Assembly: GCF_018687575.1 (NCBI RefSeq)
Contig: NZ_CP061297.1
Span: 310,001-374,000 of the forward strand
DNA: 64,000 nt
DNA from: Polynucleobacter asymbioticus
GTDB taxonomy: Bacteria; Pseudomonadota; Gammaproteobacteria; Burkholderiales; Burkholderiaceae
Direction: 5' to 3'
Shown: piece by piece, positions 27,254 through 50,865 of the stretch
How positions within the stretch are numbered: the first letter of the stretch is position 1
How the letters are laid out: each line of letters starts with the position of its first letter
Translations under genes and position numbers: made by a program
Notes under the pieces: model-generated
The model's database searches: none
Told to the model about the DNA's origin: nothing
Seen by the model: only the letters and a program-made list of their open reading frames with translations

Positions 27254-27504
27254 GTACTGCAGTTTACGATGTATACGAGCAAGGATTTAGCTCGGTGGAT
27301 TCCCTTAAATTGACTGACTTCAGCCAATTTGGTGCCTAAATCCCCTTAAATTGGCGGGGTCGATGATTTAAAATAGCATTCTCGGTCCAGTGCGCGAAAT
27401 GACACCCAAGACAGCCAAAAGCGCCTGAAGTGTTGCGTGCGGAATGCGAGAGTGGTTCGGTATAAGACCGAGCCCTAATATTTATCCATATCGAGGAAAC
27501 ATCA

Positions 27505-42380: not shown

Positions 42381-43253
42381 TTAGCGCCTAATAATTGCTT
42401 CTACTAACGGATGCTGAATTTTCTTCTCAGAGCGAATCGCGTAAAAATATTCGAAGATGTCTTCGCACTTACCAATCAGTTCAATATGGTAGGTCTCTTT
42501 TAAATCCTTTTTGATGCTCTCTCCAGCAGGAAATACGCCAAGACCACTGGCTGCAAAAGTTTTTAGTAGGGCGCTGTCCTCAAACTCTCCAGCAATATTG
42601 GGTTTGATGCCATTTTGATCGAACCATTGGTCAATTAAATGTCGAACTTTTGAGTGGGAGGTTGGCAATAGGATGGGAAGATCATTCAGGCAGGCAGGAA
42701 AAGCTTTTTTAGATTGCTTGAGCAACTTCTTGGGGCCAAACCAGGCAATCGATGACTTCATGAGCTCTTCGCTGTAGACATGAAGATTTTTATTAATGGG
42801 GGCAGGCCTGTCAGCCAGCACAATATCTAATCTATGTAGGGCTAAATCAGCCAACAGATCCTCAAATTCCCCTTCATGCGCAATGAGCTGGACATCATTT
42901 TTTTCTAGAATGGGCTCTAGTAACTGCTTGGTGACTAGCTTTGGTAAGCCATCAGATACGCCTACTGTAATTTTTGTTTTGGGAGAGCTTGCTGCTTCCC
43001 GCACCGCCTCTGGGAGCCTCTCTCCCAAAAGAAAAATTTGATCGGCAATGGCTAGGGCTGCAAAGCCTGATTCAGTCAGGGCGATCCCTCGGCCAGCGGG
43101 TTTAAATAGTAAATAGCCAAGCGACTTTTCTAATTCATGCACTTGGGCGCTAATGGTTTGAATTGCAATGTTAAGGCGCTCAGCTGCCTTAGACATGCTG
43201 CCTTCCTTGGCTACAACCCAAAAGTAATACAAATGACGGTAGCTATAGAGCAT
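42381..43253 (-). CDS. LysR family regulator, NhaR-like
   Basis: A 290-residue LysR regulator. The N-terminal start SYRHLYYFWVVAKEGSMSKA, helix-turn-helix NIAIQTISAQVHELEKSLG and effector domain with HEGEFEDLLADLALHRLDIV and LADRP match the NhaR branch, known for sensing Na+. It precedes the SbtA-like gene by 3 bp on the same strand, a probable operon. It is divergent from the TerC-family gene (124 bp), which it might also control. Confidence 0.88.
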   Translation of the reverse strand: MLYSYRHLYYFWVVAKEGSMSKAAERLNIAIQTISAQVHELEKSLGYLLFKPAGRGIALTESGFAALAIADQIFLLGERLPEAVREAASSPKTKITVGVSDGLPKLVTKQLLEPILEKNDVQLIAHEGEFEDLLADLALHRLDIVLADRPAPINKNLHVYSEELMKSSIAWFGPKKLLKQSKKAFPACLNDLPILLPTSHSKVRHLIDQWFDQNGIKPNIAGEFEDSALLKTFAASGLGVFPAGESIKKDLKETYHIELIGKCEDIFEYFYAIRSEKKIQHPLVEAIIRR

Positions 43254-43377: not shown

Positions 43378-44064
43378 TTGGAATTATTTAGCCCGGAATT
43401 CTTCTCGGCATTGTTAGCAATCATTGTGATTGACTTGGTGCTTGCAGGAGACAACGCAATTGTGATTGCAATGGCTGCGCGCAACCTCCCGGCACATCTT
43501 CAGAAAAAAGCGATCTTATGGGGTGCTATCGGTGCTATTGCAGTCAGAAGCGCCATGACTCTCTTAGTAGTGTATCTACTGAAGATTCCAGGGTTGATGC
43601 TGGTAGGCGGCTTGCTCTTGGTTTGGATTGCTTATCGTTTATTAAGCCCCAGCCAAGATCAGGATGAGCATGGCCAAGCCTCTACTACCTTCTGGGGTGC
43701 CATGAAAACGATTGTGATTGCAGATGCCATTATGGGTTTGGACAATGTGCTCGCGGTGGCCGGCGCTTCACACGGCAGTTATGTGCTCGTTGTGCTCGGA
43801 TTATTGATTAGTATTCCGATTGTTATCTGGGGCTCTACACAAATACTCAAGCTGGTTGAGCGCTTCCCTTCAGTCATTTACTTGGGCGCTGGAGTGCTGG
43901 CATGGACGGCTGCAAAGATGATCATTTCGGAGCCGATGTCCAAAGATTGGCTTTCATCACAGAACCCAGCTTTGGAATACGTGATTCAAGTGGCAGTTGT
44001 AGCTGGCGTCTTAATTGGTGGATACCTAGCCAGTAAACGTGCAGTAGAAACAGCATCGCCTTAG
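43378..44064 (+). CDS. TerC family membrane protein (YjbE type)
   Basis: A 228-residue membrane protein with seven or so helices. The two TerC metal-site motifs are LAGDNAIVIAMAARNLP (D24, N25) and ADAIMGLDNVLAVAG. TerC/Alx/YkoY relatives are Mn2+ exporters in E. coli and Bacillus. The TTG start is preceded by TAGGAG. A small hairpin CCCATG-N5-CATGGG lies at 43341-43357 upstream; I do not see a manganese riboswitch directly in front of this gene. A terminator follows. Confidence 0.9.
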   Translation: MELFSPEFFSALLAIIVIDLVLAGDNAIVIAMAARNLPAHLQKKAILWGAIGAIAVRSAMTLLVVYLLKIPGLMLVGGLLLVWIAYRLLSPSQDQDEHGQASTTFWGAMKTIVIADAIMGLDNVLAVAGASHGSYVLVVLGLLISIPIVIWGSTQILKLVERFPSVIYLGAGVLAWTAAKMIISEPMSKDWLSSQNPALEYVIQVAVVAGVLIGGYLASKRAVETASP

Positions 44065-44094: not shown

Positions 44095-44118
44095 TGCCCT
44101 CGTATTGAGGGCATTTTT
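44095..44118 (+). terminator. Rho-independent terminator after the TerC gene
   Basis: TGCCCTC (44095-44101), loop GTATT, GAGGGCA (44107-44113), then TTTTT. Confidence 0.88.
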
Positions 44119-44227: not shown

Positions 44228-44560
44228 ATGAATCTGATTTTGGAAGCTAAAGAAGGGGTTGAACCAGAATTTAAAGTCTTTACAGAGAACAGGGTTAAGT
44301 TTTCCCTCAAACGACTTTTATGGATGGTGCGGAAAATTAAAATTCGATATTCGGCCGCTGCACCTGGTAAGACAGCTTGCAATCAAAGCTGCCAGATTAG
44401 TCTAGAGACATTTGATCATCGGCAAATCGAGGTGAGTATGACTGCAAGAGATAGGCGGACTGCTCTGGAGATGTGTCTGAAGAGAATATATAAGCTGGTT
44501 CAGAAGGCGCTTCATAAAAGTCAGCAATATGGGCGATTCTCTAAAAACGTCTATATATGA
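44228..44560 (+). CDS. HPF/RaiA-like small protein
   Basis: A 110-residue basic protein. The layout resembles the short HPF/RaiA-like ribosome-associated proteins of Burkholderiales: FTENRVKFSLKRLLWMVRKI, an IRYSAAAPGK loop, NQSCQISLETFDHRQIEVSM and a helix TALEMCLKRIYKLVQKAL. There is a beta-strand, a Gly/Lys loop with cysteine, then a final helix. The similarity is visible but not strong. A GGGAGA ribosome binding site precedes the ATG. It stands alone between the TerC terminator and the riboswitch. Confidence 0.65.
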   Translation: MNLILEAKEGVEPEFKVFTENRVKFSLKRLLWMVRKIKIRYSAAAPGKTACNQSCQISLETFDHRQIEVSMTARDRRTALEMCLKRIYKLVQKALHKSQQYGRFSKNVYI

Positions 44561-44570
44561 TCTAATTAAA

Positions 44571-44694
44571 CTTGTACATGTGGGGAGTAGCCTGCTCAGT
44601 CATCTGAGTCCTATATATCGTCAATTCGGCCTTTTGGCCCGGTATATGGGTGATTAAACATCAAGGCAAGACCATTTAAATTTTTATAAATGGT
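44571..44694 (+). promoter_or_regulatory. Candidate yybP-ykoY manganese riboswitch
   Basis: The two signatures of this class are present: GGGGAGTAG at 44582-44590 and GGCAAGACC at 44665-44673. GCCT (44590-44593) pairs with AGGC (44664-44667). Inside are stem CTCAG/CTGAG (44595-44599, 44604-44608), a 10-bp stem between 44610-44619 and 44641-44650 with a TCAATTC internal loop and GGCC-TTTT-GGCC cap, and a small TGAT/ATCA stem. Directly after, ACCATTTA (44671-44678) can pair with TAAATGGT (44687-44694) and would compete with the conserved ACC, a likely expression platform. The downstream genes are an RND efflux operon. Confidence 0.85.
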
Positions 44695-44835
44695 TATAGT
44701 TTGAATATAAAGCCCCAATCGTTGATCCGACTTCCTAAAATCGTACCCAAATCCCTAGTTTGGGGAATTTCTCGCCTTTCAGCTCACATTGGGCTGGATA
44801 ATCAAAGAACGTATTTTTTCTCTAAAATTGTTGCA

Positions 44836-46101
44836 ATGAACTTCTTAAAAACTCTGTCCACACTTACTATCTGCATCTTCTTTGCAGGCGGAGTTAGTGC
44901 AAAAGTTCAAAAGCCACTGACGCTCAATGAACTCATTGGAATTGCGCTGGAGTCAAGCCCGCAAGTTTTAGCTGCGCGCGATCAATCTAAGGCGGTTAAA
45001 GGGCAACTCTCTTCCGCTCGTGCAATTCCAAATCCTGAGTTTGAGTTAAACACGGGACAGCAAAGATCGGTCAGTGGTCCCTTGACTACAGGTAATGTGT
45101 CATCGTGGTCAGTGACCCAACCTCTAGACATGCCGTATACCCGCTACCCACGCGTCAATGCTGCTGAGGCTAATTTGCGATCTGCAGAGGCAACTCGGAT
45201 TGCTTTTGAAATCGAAATGATTTCTAGGGTGCAACAACGCTTTTATGAATTGATGCGTCGTGAAGCGGAATTAAAAGCTGCTGAAGAAGATTTGGGGTTG
45301 ACCAAGCAAATTCGTGATCGCATGCAAATTCGCTATGACGTTGGTGAGACTGCTCGATTTGAATTGATTCGCGCACAAACCGAATTTTTGAATGCGCAAA
45401 TCAATACTGAATCTAGCAAGCTGAGGGTGGAGCAGGCTAAGGGTCAACTGAGACAAGTAGTTGGCCATAATTTACCGGCAGACTATGAGGTTGTCTCGCA
45501 GCCCCTCAAAATGGAGCCTTTACCTGCCTTACCAATCTTACTCAGTGAGTTACATGCACAAAGCCCTGAGTTACAGCGAGCGAAGGCGGAAGTTGAGGCT
45601 ACCGAATCCAAGCTGAGCTTTGAGCAGAATTCTCGTTTACCAAAACTATCTATTAAGGCGCAGCAATACAACGACCCTAACTTCACTGATCGCCTGTATG
45701 GCTTGGTGGTGAGTATTCCGATTTGGGACTTCAAGGGTGGTCAGATTGCGGAAGCAGAGGCGAATGCATCTAAGGCTAAGAATCAATTGAATGCGCAAAG
45801 TCAGAGTCTTGAGCAGCAGTTAGAGACGGCATACAAGCTCTACCAGATGACTAGCTATCAAGTAAAAATTCTGGATCAAGATGTCGTTCAGTTGGCATCG
45901 AGTGCGCGTCGGATTGCTGAAGTTTCTTATCGTTATGGTGAGCGCGGCATGCTCGAGTATTTGGATGCACAAAGAACATTTAGAGTAGCTCGTAATGACT
46001 TGATCAAGGCCCGCTTTGATTTAGCTTCAGTTGTTACTGAGATTCAGCGTTTAAGAGCAACCCCAGAGTGGATTGCAAAAATTGAGAGTGGAAAGCAATG
46101 A
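44836..46101 (+). CDS. TolC-family outer membrane efflux protein (CzcC-like)
   Basis: A 421-residue outer-membrane channel. The signal peptide is MNFLKTLSTLTICIFFAGG with cleavage after VSA. Two OEP repeats follow with LTLNELIGIALESSPQVLAA, coiled-coil helices (LRSAEATRIAFEIEMISRVQ) and a second half ending with RYGERGMLEYLDAQRTFRVA. The open frame extends to a TTG at 44701, but that 45-residue extension precedes a proper signal peptide and has no ribosome binding site. First gene of the RND operon behind the manganese riboswitch; overlaps the adaptor gene (ATGA). Confidence 0.92.
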   Translation: MNFLKTLSTLTICIFFAGGVSAKVQKPLTLNELIGIALESSPQVLAARDQSKAVKGQLSSARAIPNPEFELNTGQQRSVSGPLTTGNVSSWSVTQPLDMPYTRYPRVNAAEANLRSAEATRIAFEIEMISRVQQRFYELMRREAELKAAEEDLGLTKQIRDRMQIRYDVGETARFELIRAQTEFLNAQINTESSKLRVEQAKGQLRQVVGHNLPADYEVVSQPLKMEPLPALPILLSELHAQSPELQRAKAEVEATESKLSFEQNSRLPKLSIKAQQYNDPNFTDRLYGLVVSIPIWDFKGGQIAEAEANASKAKNQLNAQSQSLEQQLETAYKLYQMTSYQVKILDQDVVQLASSARRIAEVSYRYGERGMLEYLDAQRTFRVARNDLIKARFDLASVVTEIQRLRATPEWIAKIESGKQ

Positions 46102-47444
46102 AGCAAGAGTTCACGGAAATGATGACGAAGTCCAAGGAGTTGTACTCCCGCTATATGGCAATTGCAAAAGTCTATGTGCAGGAGTGGGTTGCCGCTGTTA
46201 TTAAAGCTCAAAATGATTTGTATGTGCTGACCCATGAGTGGTTTAGTACCCACCTACCTCGGGTAGCCCAGCAATACGATAAGACTCCCCCTTGGACGCA
46301 AAAAGGACTTTTTTACCTTCCTTGGTTTTGTCTATTTCTGATCATCCTGAATTACTTCAACGTCTTTGATCGCAGCCCGACTATTAAGTCTGTACAAGAC
46401 CCCAATGTGGTGATTGTGAATGATGATCTGCGCAACATGATTACGGATGGAGAGGTTTATACCGGCTCATTTGTTGAAGAATTGCGTGCTTCAGGTCGGG
46501 TAGATTTTAATGAGATGTTTTTATCTCGTATCGGCGCGAACGTGACCGGTCGCGTATCCGATATCCTTGCCGTTCCGGGCCAAAAGGTGAAGCAGGGCGA
46601 TATTTTGGCCAAAATTACTTCTACTGAACTAACGCAATCCCAGCTCTCGTTTTTGAAGGCTAAGAGTGCAAGTCAATTGGCTGACCAGGCTGCTAATCGC
46701 GCTAGGATTTTGTATAAAGAAGATGTGATTGCTTTGGCTGAGTTGCAAAAGCGAGAGGCTGAGGCCAGTAGTGCCAAGGCGGAGTATCGTGCGGCAAATG
46801 ATCAATTGCGTGTTCAGGGCATGGATCAGCCCAGTATCGATCGCTTAGCAAAGTCCGGTGTAATTGAATCTACCAACAATGTGATCGCCAGCATCCCCGG
46901 TGAAATTGTAGAGAGAAAGATTAATAAAGGTCAGGTAGTTCAGCCTGCCGATGCTCTCTTTACGGTGGCTGACTTGAATACCTTATGGGCCGTATCTGAG
47001 ATTCCAGAAAGTAACTCTTATTTAATTCATAAGGGGCAGAATGTGAATTTGATTATTCCCGCCCTGCGTAATGCCGAGATCCAAGGTGTTGTTGCCCACG
47101 TTGACTCGATCGTTAACCCACAAACTCGAACTGTAGTGGTACGGATGGAAGTGCCCAATAAAGACGGCTTGATTAAGCCTGGAATGTTAGCAACGATGAT
47201 GATCGAGAGCCAGCCAACAGAAAAACTACTAGTGCCTACTAGCGCCATCATTCGTGAAGACAATAATGATTATGTTTTTGTGAAAGAGGATGATGAAACC
47301 TACCGCATGATGGCCGTGAAGCTTGGCCCTGAAGGTAAGGGATATCGTCCAGTGATCTCAGGTCTCAAGGAGGGTCAAAATATTGCAGTCAATGGCGCCT
47401 TCCATTTGAATTCTGAACGTAAAAGACAGTTGAGTGGTGGATAA
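46098..47444 (+). CDS. RND efflux periplasmic adaptor (CzcB-like)
   Basis: A 448-residue membrane fusion protein. A 70-residue cytoplasmic N-terminal extension precedes one membrane helix (LPWFCLFLIILNYFNVF). Then come barrel-sandwich/lipoyl halves (IGANVTGRVSDILAVPGQKV and IPGEIVERKINKGQVV), a helical hairpin and the beta-barrel (LWAVSEIPESN). No His-rich metal-binding N-terminus is visible, unlike CzcB. It links the inner-membrane pump to the outer-membrane channel. It overlaps the channel gene by 4 bp and lies 5 bp before the pump gene. Confidence 0.92.
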   Translation: MKQEFTEMMTKSKELYSRYMAIAKVYVQEWVAAVIKAQNDLYVLTHEWFSTHLPRVAQQYDKTPPWTQKGLFYLPWFCLFLIILNYFNVFDRSPTIKSVQDPNVVIVNDDLRNMITDGEVYTGSFVEELRASGRVDFNEMFLSRIGANVTGRVSDILAVPGQKVKQGDILAKITSTELTQSQLSFLKAKSASQLADQAANRARILYKEDVIALAELQKREAEASSAKAEYRAANDQLRVQGMDQPSIDRLAKSGVIESTNNVIASIPGEIVERKINKGQVVQPADALFTVADLNTLWAVSEIPESNSYLIHKGQNVNLIIPALRNAEIQGVVAHVDSIVNPQTRTVVVRMEVPNKDGLIKPGMLATMMIESQPTEKLLVPTSAIIREDNNDYVFVKEDDETYRMMAVKLGPEGKGYRPVISGLKEGQNIAVNGAFHLNSERKRQLSGG

Positions 47445-47449
47445 GCTGC

Positions 47450-50400
47450 ATGATTGAGAAAATTGTCCGTCTTTCCCTGCAGCAGCGACTCTTAGTCACC
47501 ATCATTGCTTTGGTATTAATGGTGGCAGGCCTGCTGGCAACTAAGCGTCTGTCAGTGGATGCATTTCCAGATGTCACCAATGTGCAGGTACAAATTGCAT
47601 CTGAAGCCCCGGGTCGCTCTCCAGAAGAGGTAGAGCGCTTTGTCACGGTCCCTATTGAATTGGCGATGACTGGTTTACCGGGCCTTACCGAGATGCGATC
47701 TCTCAATCGCAATGGACTCTCTGTGATTACCTTGGTATTTACGGATAAGACAGAGCTCTATTTAGCAAGACAGTTGGTTACTGAGCGTCTGATTGAAGTG
47801 TCTTCCAGAATGCCCATTGGAATTACGCCTGTTTTAGCTCCACCTTCAACCGGTTTAGGTGAAATCTATCAATACACCTTAGATCACCCTTCTGATGGAG
47901 ATAAAGAGCTCACTGTAGATCAGCTTGAAGAGCGTCGGACTATTCAAGACTGGATTGTGCGTCCGATGTTGCGCTCCATACCTGGAGTGGCTGAAATTAA
48001 TACTCAAGGTGGATATGCGCGTGAGTATCAGGTCTTAGTGAATCCAGAGCGCTTACGTCACTATCAAGTCAGTTTGCGTGAGGTGTATGAAGCACTCGCC
48101 AGAAATAATGCTAATTCCGGTGGTGGACAGCTACCCACTTACGCCGAGCGATATCTGATTCGTGGTGTGGGATTGATTACTAAGCCGGAAGATATTGGCA
48201 AAATTATTCTGAAAGAGGTCAAAGGTATTCCGGTGTACGTGAAGAACGTAGCGGAAGTCACCATCGGTAGTGAGATACGTCAAGGTGCAGCGATCAAAAA
48301 TGGCTATACGGAGAGTGTGGCAGGCATTATTCAGATGATTCGTGGCGGTAATGCGCGTGAGGTAGTAAACCGTATTAAATTAAAAGTAGCTGAAATTAAC
48401 GAAGCAAAATTACTCCCTGATGGCCTGCAGATCGTGCCATTCTATGATCGTACAGACTTGGTCAATGCGGCCATGTTTAATGTGGCGAAAGTATTGGTCG
48501 AGGGAGTTATCTTGGTCATTATTTTGCTCTTCTTATTCCTGGGGGATGTGCGCTCTTCCTTGATTGTGGTGGCTACATTAATTTTGACGCCACTACTGAC
48601 ATTCTTGGTGATGAATCGTTACGGCATCTCCGCTAACTTGATGTCATTAGGCGGCCTTGCAATTGCGATTGGCATCATGGTGGATGGCTCGGTAGTAGTT
48701 GTGGAGAATACTTTCGCTAAGTTAGGCGAGCGATTAAAGATGGGTGAATCGAAGAACCGGATTATTTTGGAAGCTGCCTCTGAAGTAGGTACTCCGGTCT
48801 TGTTTGGTGTGGGCATCATCATCTTGGTATTTATGCCACTACTCTCTCTGGAAGGGATGGAGGGCAAGATGTTTGCCCCTATGGCCATCACTATTGCAAT
48901 TGCTTTAACTATTTCTCTGATCCTATCCTTTACCTTGTCTCCGGCACTGTGCTCTTATATTTTGAAGGGTGGTAGTGAGGATGACACGAAGCTAGTTGCC
49001 CGTCTTCGTGCGCCATATGATCGTTGGCTGCATTGGAGTCTTGCTAATCCGAAGCTGGTCGTGAAGAGATCCTTGATGGCATTAGCGGCGAGTTTGGTCG
49101 GCTTTGTGCTCTTGGGTAAAGCATTTATTCCAGTGATGCAAGAGGGCTCAATCACCCCTGTGATTGTGCGCGCGCCGAATATTTCTTTGGATGAGTCAAT
49201 TAAGCTCGAGTTTGAGGCTATCAAAAGAATTATGACTATTCCTGATGTCAAGATGGCGGTCTCGCGCTTGGGTAGAGGTGAGTCTCCTGCTGATCCAGGT
49301 CAGCCTAATGAGTCTGACCCAATCGTGACCTTAAAGGCTTTAAGTGATCGCAAATTAAGTCAAGAAGAGATTGCTCAGGAAATTCGCGATAAGTTAAAAA
49401 CGCTTCCTGGTATTGAATTAGCGATTTCACAGCCGATTGCTGCGCGCGTCGATGAGATGGTTTCGGGCGTGAGGTCGCAAGTAGCGATTAAGATTTTTGG
49501 CGATGATTTGTTGATCTTGAAAAAGCTAGGAGCGCAAATCAGTCAAATCTTAACGAAGATGAAAGGTAGTAATGACTTGCGAATTGAGCAAGTATCTGGA
49601 CAAAACTATCTCAACATCAAAATTGATCGAGATGCTATTGCTCGTTATGGAATTAATGTATCGGATGTTAATGAAGTAATTGAAACGGCGATTGGTGGCA
49701 AGCAGGCTAGCATTGTTTACGAAGGGGAGAGGCGTTTCCCGCTGATGTTGCGCTATCCCGCTCCCTATCGAGATAATGTGGATGCTATCGCCAATATCAT
49801 TTTGCATTCACCGGATGGTGCTCAAGTATTAATGCGGGACTTAGCGGATATTTCCTTAGTAGACGGTCCAGCACAAATTTCTCGCGAGGCAGGTAAACGT
49901 CGTTTGGTTGTTGGCGTCAACGTCGATGGTCGAGATTTGGGTGGCTTTGTAAAGGAAGCGCAAGACTTGATTGCTAAACAGGTTGAGTTGCCAGAAGGGT
50001 ATACCTTGGAGTGGGGCGGCCAGTTTGAAAACATGGAACGTGCGATGGCTCGTTTAATGATCATTATTCCGTTAACCATTTTGGCAATCTTCTTCCTACT
50101 CTTCATGCTGTTTAAGTCCATCCGATTAGCAGGCTTGATTATTTTGGTGCTGCCTTTCGCTTCTATTGGTGGTGTGGTCGGTCTATTCTTGGCTGGTGAA
50201 TATTTATCCGTACCTGCTGCAGTAGGATTTATCAACTTATGGGGTATCGCTGTTCTGAACGGCGTGGTCTTGATCTCCTTTATTAAGCAATTACGCGAAG
50301 AGGGCTACTCTATGGAAGATGCCTTGCTACATGGATGTGGCCATCGCTTTAGGCCGGTCATGATGACTGCCTCAGTCGCGATGCTGGCGTTGGTGCCCAT

Positions 50401-50545
50401 GCTATTTTCAGGTGGTCCAGGATCCGAGGTTACAAGGCCTTTGGCTGCAGTAGTAATCGCTGGCCTCATCACATCAACTGCATTAACATTACTAGTACTG
50501 CCTGTCCTATACAGATGGTTCGAAGATAAAGAGGTGGAAGCATGA
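47450..50545 (+). CDS. Heavy-metal efflux RND pump (CzcA/CusA family)
   Basis: A 1031-residue HME-RND proton antiporter. It has twelve helices with two large periplasmic domains, PDVTNVQVQIASEAPGRSPE near the N-terminus and the TM4 motif GGLAIAIGIMVDGSVVVVEN (401-420). In TM4 the conserved D412 and E419 are kept. The first Asp of the CzcA D-D-E triad is alanine (A406), so it is not a typical Zn/Co/Cd (HME1) pump, and the Met-rich CusA pattern is not obvious. The upstream riboswitch makes Mn2+ a candidate substrate. The last codons overlap the PII-like gene. Confidence 0.93.
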   Translation: MIEKIVRLSLQQRLLVTIIALVLMVAGLLATKRLSVDAFPDVTNVQVQIASEAPGRSPEEVERFVTVPIELAMTGLPGLTEMRSLNRNGLSVITLVFTDKTELYLARQLVTERLIEVSSRMPIGITPVLAPPSTGLGEIYQYTLDHPSDGDKELTVDQLEERRTIQDWIVRPMLRSIPGVAEINTQGGYAREYQVLVNPERLRHYQVSLREVYEALARNNANSGGGQLPTYAERYLIRGVGLITKPEDIGKIILKEVKGIPVYVKNVAEVTIGSEIRQGAAIKNGYTESVAGIIQMIRGGNAREVVNRIKLKVAEINEAKLLPDGLQIVPFYDRTDLVNAAMFNVAKVLVEGVILVIILLFLFLGDVRSSLIVVATLILTPLLTFLVMNRYGISANLMSLGGLAIAIGIMVDGSVVVVENTFAKLGERLKMGESKNRIILEAASEVGTPVLFGVGIIILVFMPLLSLEGMEGKMFAPMAITIAIALTISLILSFTLSPALCSYILKGGSEDDTKLVARLRAPYDRWLHWSLANPKLVVKRSLMALAASLVGFVLLGKAFIPVMQEGSITPVIVRAPNISLDESIKLEFEAIKRIMTIPDVKMAVSRLGRGESPADPGQPNESDPIVTLKALSDRKLSQEEIAQEIRDKLKTLPGIELAISQPIAARVDEMVSGVRSQVAIKIFGDDLLILKKLGAQISQILTKMKGSNDLRIEQVSGQNYLNIKIDRDAIARYGINVSDVNEVIETAIGGKQASIVYEGERRFPLMLRYPAPYRDNVDAIANIILHSPDGAQVLMRDLADISLVDGPAQISREAGKRRLVVGVNVDGRDLGGFVKEAQDLIAKQVELPEGYTLEWGGQFENMERAMARLMIIIPLTILAIFFLLFMLFKSIRLAGLIILVLPFASIGGVVGLFLAGEYLSVPAAVGFINLWGIAVLNGVVLISFIKQLREEGYSMEDALLHGCGHRFRPVMMTASVAMLALVPMLFSGGPGSEVTRPLAAVVIAGLITSTALTLLVLPVLYRWFEDKEVEA

Positions 50546-50865
50546 TGGAAGTAAAGGCGGTTATTCGCCCTAATAAATTAGCCGCCTTAAGAACGGCATT
50601 ACTGGAGACCCCGGGGTTTCCGGGTATGACAGTCACCAAGGTTGAGGGCTGTAGTGCCCCGAACCGTACTAGTAAATTTAATATTAAAGAAGAGCTGACT
50701 GATTATTCTGCAAAAGTGAAAGTTGAAATCGTTTGCAACGACGAGATTGCACCAGTTTTTATGGATCGGATTGTGACTATTTGCCAAACGGGTCAAGTGG
50801 GGGATGGGGTAGTTTGGTGTACAGAAGTGCCGAAGGCCTTCTTTATCTCTAAGACCTCAGTCTAG
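50542..50865 (+). CDS. PII-like protein of the metal-efflux-linked group
   Basis: A 107-residue protein of the P-II superfamily: start MMEVKAVIRPNKLAALRTAL, the region with a B-loop-like turn, and tail IVTICQTGQVGDGVVWCTEV corresponding to the C-loop (classically RTGxxGDGKIFV). The T-loop is short and lacks the uridylylated tyrosine context. PII-type proteins encoded beside RND metal pumps have been described as a separate group (PII-NG). Its ATG overlaps the stop of the pump gene, so it is part of the operon. Ligand (nucleotide or metal) unknown. Confidence 0.87.
   Translation: MMEVKAVIRPNKLAALRTALLETPGFPGMTVTKVEGCSAPNRTSKFNIKEELTDYSAKVKVEIVCNDEIAPVFMDRIVTICQTGQVGDGVVWCTEVPKAFFISKTSV

Follow-up and report, generated by a model that had tools for sequence, protein, structure and literature searches.

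We found that a manganese (Mn2+) riboswitch aptamer of the yybP-ykoY class (Rfam family RF00080) lies in front of an operon for a tripartite efflux pump in Polynucleobacter asymbioticus. The aptamer spans positions 44582-44673 of the window, the 64,000-nucleotide (nt) stretch of DNA analyzed here (310001-374000 in a genome made up of one 1.84 Mb contig), and is followed by czcC-, czcB- and czcA-like genes for a pump of the resistance-nodulation-division (RND) superfamily and by a gene for a PII-like protein. The RND operon is a new target class for a known riboswitch. Judged by sequence and predicted structure, the aptamer is near certain to be a structural member of the yybP-ykoY class, though it is under the Rfam score threshold, and we consider it very likely that this riboswitch places the operon under Mn2+ control.

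The original prediction had proposed this pairing and suspected that it was undescribed. A literature search combining riboswitch with RND, CzcA, CusA, heavy-metal efflux or Polynucleobacter bore this out in returning no such report; the gene lists of the founding Mn-riboswitch papers were outside the search, and a mention there is possible. The Mn2+ riboswitch regulon would reach a pump superfamily not linked to Mn in the portions of the literature found. The arrangement would also offer a simple reporter for testing, as well as a route to substrate assignment for czc-like operons that carry PII-like genes and are so far uncharacterised. The genus Polynucleobacter is very common in fresh water.

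Identity and conservation of the aptamer

Both conserved elements of the yybP-ykoY class noted in the original prediction are present on the forward strand, GGGGAGTAG at 44582-44590, forming the 5´ strand of loop L1, and GGCAAGACC at 44665-44673, forming the 3´ strand of P1.2/L1. RF00080 matched 44576-44697 on the same strand, covering the aptamer and the start of the expression platform, with 21.1 bits and an E value of 0.0013 when 851 nt were compared permissively to the whole of Rfam. When the whole genome was searched with RF00080, this interval was the sole match at E <= 10 (E 6.6e-4). The expected assignment to RF00080 was borne out by a unique genomic match and fell short in its score, which lies under the gathering threshold of 45 bits and weighs against class membership. 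For this reason the element is absent from a default Rfam scan of the window. The gathering threshold is set by curators and does not reflect a physical feature, and a single match of 21.1 bits, taken alone, is suggestive and not proof.

The genus provides the context. Unmodified RF00080 matched 45 of 151 Polynucleobacter genomes at E <= 1 and exceeded its cut-off in eight. Among 30 such loci listed, the gene behind the match was czcC in 15, GDT1/MneA-like in eight and TerC in six, with one match inside another gene judged spurious (czcC and TerC were identified by tblastn with the window proteins and GDT1 by eye, with one GDT1 and one TerC representative confirmed by Pfam). Since half of these loci are directly upstream of czcC, the RF00080 match is beyond chance, and since the loci precede czcC, GDT1 and TerC, one genus holds three types of target, of which two are classical. 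The 15 czcC-linked matches all stay under the cut-off (37.0 bits, at locus L010, is the highest RF00080 score named for relatives preceding czcC), and the matches over it are GDT1 ones. The Rfam cut-off thus conceals a sub-group of the class.

Relatives of czcC were found in 71 of the 151 genomes (E <= 1e-60), and the upstream DNA was read for 67, with four partial or broken copies (G017, G028, G042 and G103) omitted, the last of which still has a match of 65.8 bits to R1, a covariance model built from 36 of the genus czcC-upstream aptamers. The survey of related genomes upheld the arrangement: R1 scored at least 61 bits in 56 of the 67 loci, 21.9 bits in one, and found no match in ten. The window itself scores 100.5 bits, its sequence being in the R1 training set, and with 36 sequences used in training, conservation is more fairly stated as 20 of the 31 non-training loci. 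A script placed czcC in 62 of the 67 loci, and 53 of these carry both GGGGAGTAG and GGC[A/G/C]AGACC. An overlapping set of 45 named-record loci, from Polynucleobacter or unnamed Burkholderiaceae and betaproteobacterial bins, gave a similar picture (38 with R1 at 61 bits or more upstream of czcC, two at about 20-22 bits and five with none). The genes further upstream vary, from TerC with an open reading frame (ORF) of 110 amino acids, here ORF110, to a divergent unidentified gene or, by eye, a divergent SbtA-like gene, while the pairing of aptamer and czcC is constant. The ten loci lacking an R1 match and the one with a degenerate match do count against an obligate link, since they indicate that the pump can exist without the switch.

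Covariation further supports the predicted fold. We aligned 52 aptamers, with rows picked by their L1 motifs; GGGGAGTAG is present in 52/52 rows and GGC[A/G/C]AGACC in the 53 aligned loci, and because both were selection criteria, the invariance of L1 is partly built in. RNAalifold predicted a four-way junction from the 52 sequences, with compensatory changes in 15 of 28 pairs. These changes fall in helix P2 (44594-44598 with 44605-44609; 3/5 pairs), helix P3 with its inner stem (44610-44620 with 44640-44650, and 44628-44630 with 44637-44639; 9/14 pairs) and helix P4 (44651-44653 with 44661-44663; 3/3 pairs). Overall, 97.0% of cells are paired, falling to 44-45% when partners are slid by one column. 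The covariation score was 0.373, compared to 0.202 ± 0.008 in shuffles, none of 500 being as high, and for further pair types 5 of 500 shuffles were as high as the real alignment. Helix P1.1 is the weak point of the model: it forms 4.64 of 8 pairs, where shuffles, which do not allow for relatedness, give 4.04 ± 0.11 (0/500 as high). That all of this is a chance motif match without function is suggested by the score under the Rfam cut-off, and is extremely improbable in view of the covariation, the aptamer position in 56/67 loci and the RF00080 loci before czcC across the genus.

The residues expected to bind the metal lie in L3 (UCAAUUC, 44621-44627), which was no selection criterion. Within L3, all 52 rows share C, A, T and C at alignment columns 50, 51, 53 and 55, respectively. 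By our reading of the spacing, column 51, A44623 in the window, corresponds to A41 of the Lactococcus lactis aptamer, where the Mn site comprises U39, C40, A41, U44 and C45 and the N7 of A41 binds Mn2+ (PMC9190785). The window aptamer retains the invariable Mn-binding adenosine of the class together with L3 and both L1 strands (site residues from PMC9190785 and PMC6754395). The conserved site points to Mn2+ as the probable ligand. Compared to the yybP-ykoY leaders of mntP, alx and yoaB, the window RNA has the same L1 strands, L3 adenosine, four-way junction and competing hairpin, whereas the operon that it precedes is tripartite, of the RND kind and with a PII-like gene, and its aptamer is shorter and under the Rfam cut-off. 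A diverged aptamer that senses a different metal or ligand would fit the low RF00080 score and an L3 that is, by eye, shorter than in Burkholderiaceae aptamers; we regard this as improbable, given that the core L3 residues are kept, including the counterpart of the Mn-binding adenosine in every row. The NiCo riboswitch is also a metal-sensing RNA with a four-way junction (PMC6754395), but no Ni/Co riboswitch family matched the window in the default Rfam scan or the leader in the permissive scan.

In L050 and L051, the aptamer is gone upstream of czcC and another leader is found there, in a stretch that aligns between the two genomes at 86%; this leader has no Rfam family and folds no better than shuffled sequence. 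That a different known RNA has taken the place of the aptamer found no support: an Rfam scan of eight of the 11 loci without a strong match (L050-L053, L068, L085, L087 and L088; L058, L086 and L089 were outside it) gave only a weak RyhB-like match under the cut-off (E 0.5). In L090, L091 and L107, czcC copies with stops or breaks follow a good aptamer, which suggests that some lineages have lost the pump recently. In L010, a tRNA gene at 1666-1751 precedes the aptamer match by 36 nt, both being on one strand, and no TerC or ORF110 match was found at this locus.

A candidate translational switch

The competing hairpin described in the original prediction was located at 44670-44695 on the forward strand (GACCAUUUA...UAAAUGGUU), directly 3´ of the aptamer, where it captures the last aptamer strand and is mutually exclusive with L1/P1.1. 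Across the minimum-energy folds of 53 sequences, at least one C of GACC is paired with a downstream arm in all 53 (a count made without a shuffle control), and 51 have the common form of the hairpin, the exceptions being L084, with three pairs, and L024, with another hairpin. For the window, the fold with the hairpin has a predicted energy of -42.3 kcal/mol, compared to -36.4 kcal/mol for the best fold with the 3´ arm open, values that include no ligand or tertiary energy.

A candidate TTG start codon (44701-44703, forward strand), in frame with czcC, is found 7 nt past the hairpin arm, and TTG or GTG is present in 20/20 close relatives compared. Exactly this spacing recurs in 36 of 54 leaders, and in six others a GTG within the hairpin arm opens an apparent signal peptide. 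The frame from the TTG or GTG runs into czcC in 41/54 leaders; it does not in L069 and L076 (both among the 36), nor in L040 and L041. In L077-L081 and L092 the codons picked by the start-codon finder were wrong, and in L084 it detected no arm. The hairpin and the start codon at a fixed distance in most leaders indicate sequestration of the start region, and a translational ON switch is, on this predicted arrangement, the mechanism we moderately favor.

The alternative is transcriptional: a terminator or Rho-linked pause would be formed by the hairpin or by an inverted repeat, rich in G+C, that comes later in the leader. By eye, many leaders do share inverted repeats, for example CCCAAAT...ATTTGGGGAATTT or CCCCAAATTGGGG, and the platform of the one locus of this kind in a second genus (G172, see below) looks terminator-like by eye. 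A pattern scan of the stretch from aptamer to czcC, on the other hand, gave no terminator-like site, whether in the window or in the second genus; the hairpin that is conserved is rich in A+U, and the start codon keeps its distance from the hairpin in most leaders. We therefore view transcriptional control as unlikely.

In the translational model, the yybP-ykoY riboswitch would act as an ON switch for the czcC-czcB-czcA-PII operon. Without Mn2+, the hairpin at 44670-44695 would take the last aptamer strand (GACC) and hold the start region (UUG at 44701). Rising Mn2+ would bridge L1 and L3 at A44623 and dock the four-way junction, such that L1/P1.1 retains the GACC strand and the hairpin cannot form. 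czcC and the closely spaced genes behind it would then be translated, and the pump would most likely export Mn2+, in a genus without MntP.

A number of observations on the TTG weigh against this model. The leader from 44701 to 44835 has no codon-position bias (0.32/0.33/0.36, compared to 0.21/0.09/0.70 inside czcC) among 20 close relatives, a comparison that omits L041, which is out of frame, and L092, and the region 44701-44836 is thus not conserved as a peptide. Another close relative, L040, has a stop in the leader. In L076-L081, the apparent start is a later ATG, about 30-35 nt past the arm, and no strong Shine-Dalgarno sequence is seen by eye near 44701. We consider both TTG 44701 and ATG 44836 candidates for the czcC start, the latter beginning 162 nt past the aptamer, in agreement with the gap given in the original prediction.

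The possibility that the real target is a short gene overlooked between the aptamer and czcC was considered and rejected: the frame running into czcC in most leaders, with no peptide-like conservation, leaves no separate conserved gene among the genus leaders compared.

The pump and its cargo

The operon is of the CzcCBA type and ends in a PII-like gene, as predicted originally and now backed by domain matches; all four genes are on the forward strand. czcC (44836-46101) encodes an OEP/CzcC-like outer-membrane channel (PF02321), with its ATG before an apparent signal peptide and the frame open from 44701. czcB (46098-47444) encodes an HlyD/CzcB-like periplasmic adaptor (PF16576; TIGR01730 over its cut-off; TIGR00999 at 163 bits, below its cut-off of 319). 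czcA (47450-50545) encodes the RND transporter, placed in the CusA/CzcA family of heavy-metal efflux RND (HME-RND) pumps by TIGR00914 (1099 bits, cut-off 701). The PII-like gene (50542-50865; PF00543, 48.8 bits) overlaps the end of czcA by 4 nt, and a PII gene adjoins czcA in 33 of the 45 named-record loci, with no PII match in the DNA examined for the other 12. The encoding of a PII-domain gene with czc genes is shared with PII-NG of Geobacter (GSU2134-2137), a likeness of gene arrangement. The Geobacter operon differs in that it is reported to be Fur-regulated and Co-induced (PMC7726332), and not riboswitch-controlled.

The window pump shares the C-B-A gene order and the CusA/CzcA family with the HME-RND pumps CzcCBA, ZneA and CusA, and differs from them in the RNA element in front of its operon, with, by eye, no metal-sensor gene beside it. 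It also differs in transmembrane helix 4 (TM4), where the motif AIGIMVDGSVVVVEN reads AIG-X3-DGS-X3-VEN and not DFG-X3-DGA-X3-VEN, the TM4 signature of HME1/HME2 (CzcA, CnrA) given in PMC3637150. A search for AIG/AVG-X3-DGS-X3-VEN, a pattern blind to DFG, gave 38 matches in the 45 named loci. The solved structures nearest in sequence to the czcA product are ZneA and CusA. One CzcA Asp is indeed missing from TM4, with A in place of the first Asp of ZneA; the further suggestion, that this signals a different metal preference, proved weak. Since the Asp is absent from the Cu/Ag pump CusA as well, its loss says little about Mn.

The window pump does not share the Cu(I)-binding methionine triad of CusA, the HME4 pump (M573-M623-M672; PMC8092243). 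In an alignment counted by hand, the three positions hold V, E and E, with D at CusA E625, which argues against a Cu/Ag pump. The acidic residues would fit a harder divalent metal, Mn or Zn alike.

Manganese physiology bears on the same question. MntP was found in 0/151 genus genomes at E <= 1e-5 by a search that finds it in 4 of 14 controls, including E. coli, and no Nramp importer was found in the genome of the window. From the riboswitch class, the absence of MntP in 151/151 genomes and the acidic residues at the CusA methionines, we put Mn2+ as the cargo of the pump at close to an even chance, if slightly under it. Telling against a dedicated role is a gene for GDT1/MneA, another Mn exporter family, in 146/151 genomes, including that of the window, so the pump is not the only candidate Mn exporter. 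Mutual exclusion of the RND aptamer and the GDT1 gene was rejected on the same count, and five genomes (G063, G088, G099, G112 and G120) have one aptamer before GDT1 and another before czcC.

Alternatively, the riboswitch may sense Mn2+ as a signal of mismetallation or metal stress in front of a pump that mainly carries a different divalent metal (Zn, Co, Cd, Ni or Fe). The literature found (PMC3637150, PMC7060636) lists HME-RND subgroups for Zn/Co/Cd, Co/Ni, Cu/Ag, Ni or "divalent" substrates and gives none for Mn; in Geobacter, the PII-NG-czcABC operon is reported to be Co-induced and Fur-regulated (PMC7726332); and ZneA, the nearest solved relative, is a Zn pump (Zn specificity from PMC7060636). 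Against this, most class loci read in other genera precede MntP, GDT1 or TerC genes, and no MerR, two-component or sigma-factor gene was seen by eye among the ORFs listed around the operon, though a LysR-type gene is near it at 42381-43253. A cargo other than Mn is, in our estimation, a real but doubtful possibility. The fuller proposal, that a dedicated tripartite RND pump is a riboswitch-controlled Mn2+ exporter replacing MntP in Polynucleobacter, and thereby the first Mn-specific RND pump, with an RNA and not a protein as metal sensor and a PII-family protein as second control, is one that we advance tentatively, as falling somewhat short of even odds.

Class members elsewhere and neighboring genes

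A family-level search with R1 matched 66 of 249 genomes at 71 places, 15 of them in Polynucleobacter (two before TerC). A non-random 26 of the other 56 places were read, namely 13 of the 15 supplied with their loci and 13 retrieved separately (L109 and L117 were omitted), with genes called by eye and one MntP and one exchanger representative confirmed; they precede seven MntP, three GDT1 and two TerC genes (one behind another gene), one czc-like operon and 13 Na/Ca-exchanger-like genes. The Na/Ca exchanger gene behind a Mn aptamer is thus a recurrent arrangement in several Burkholderiaceae genomes (PF01699 in L112).

The czc-like operon is in G172, from another genus, where the aptamer scores 36.8 bits with R1 (E 5.7e-6 for that genome) and is not found by RF00080 at E 0.05. 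It precedes OEP, HlyD and ACR_tran matches that lie in several reading-frame pieces, with no PII relative in the 11.5 kb.

At order level, 20 of 22 R1 places in other families were read (L185 and L186 were omitted) and none has an RND target; six precede TerC (one about 1.1 kb away), six MntP, four GDT1 and four a LysR-type gene. At class level, RF00080 gave 23 places in 21 of 321 genomes (two being identical copies), by eye 20 GDT1 and three MntP, again with no RND target. Thus, of 69 places read outside the genus, one has an RND target, and that is a weaker match. The LysR-type genes in other Burkholderiales families (L169, L171, L179 and L181; R1 36-49 bits) are a target type not seen elsewhere, and in L169 and L171 a GlcG/HbpS-like gene comes next, by eye.

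Upstream of the aptamer in the window is a TerC gene of the YjbE subfamily (43378-44064, forward strand; TIGR03717, 232 bits), which the original prediction took as strengthening a manganese theme. The gene is there, but it is not a constant neighbor, with no TerC in 11 of the 38 strong-aptamer named loci (the upstream DNA being short in some). A pattern scan placed a terminator-like site behind TerC at 44095-44113 (0.7 such sites expected in shuffles), and the whole-genome RF00080 search at E <= 10 gave TerC no match of its own. TerC as the real target or a co-regulated neighbor was rejected, the aptamer being downstream of both TerC and ORF110 and the terminator-like site standing behind TerC. 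Of the 45 named loci, 31 carry full-length relatives of ORF110 itself, which lies at 44228-44560 between TerC and the aptamer; it has no Pfam match and resembles a ribosome-hibernation factor by eye only. Elsewhere in the window, at 27360-27496, there is an icd-II RNA motif (RF04189, 122 bits).

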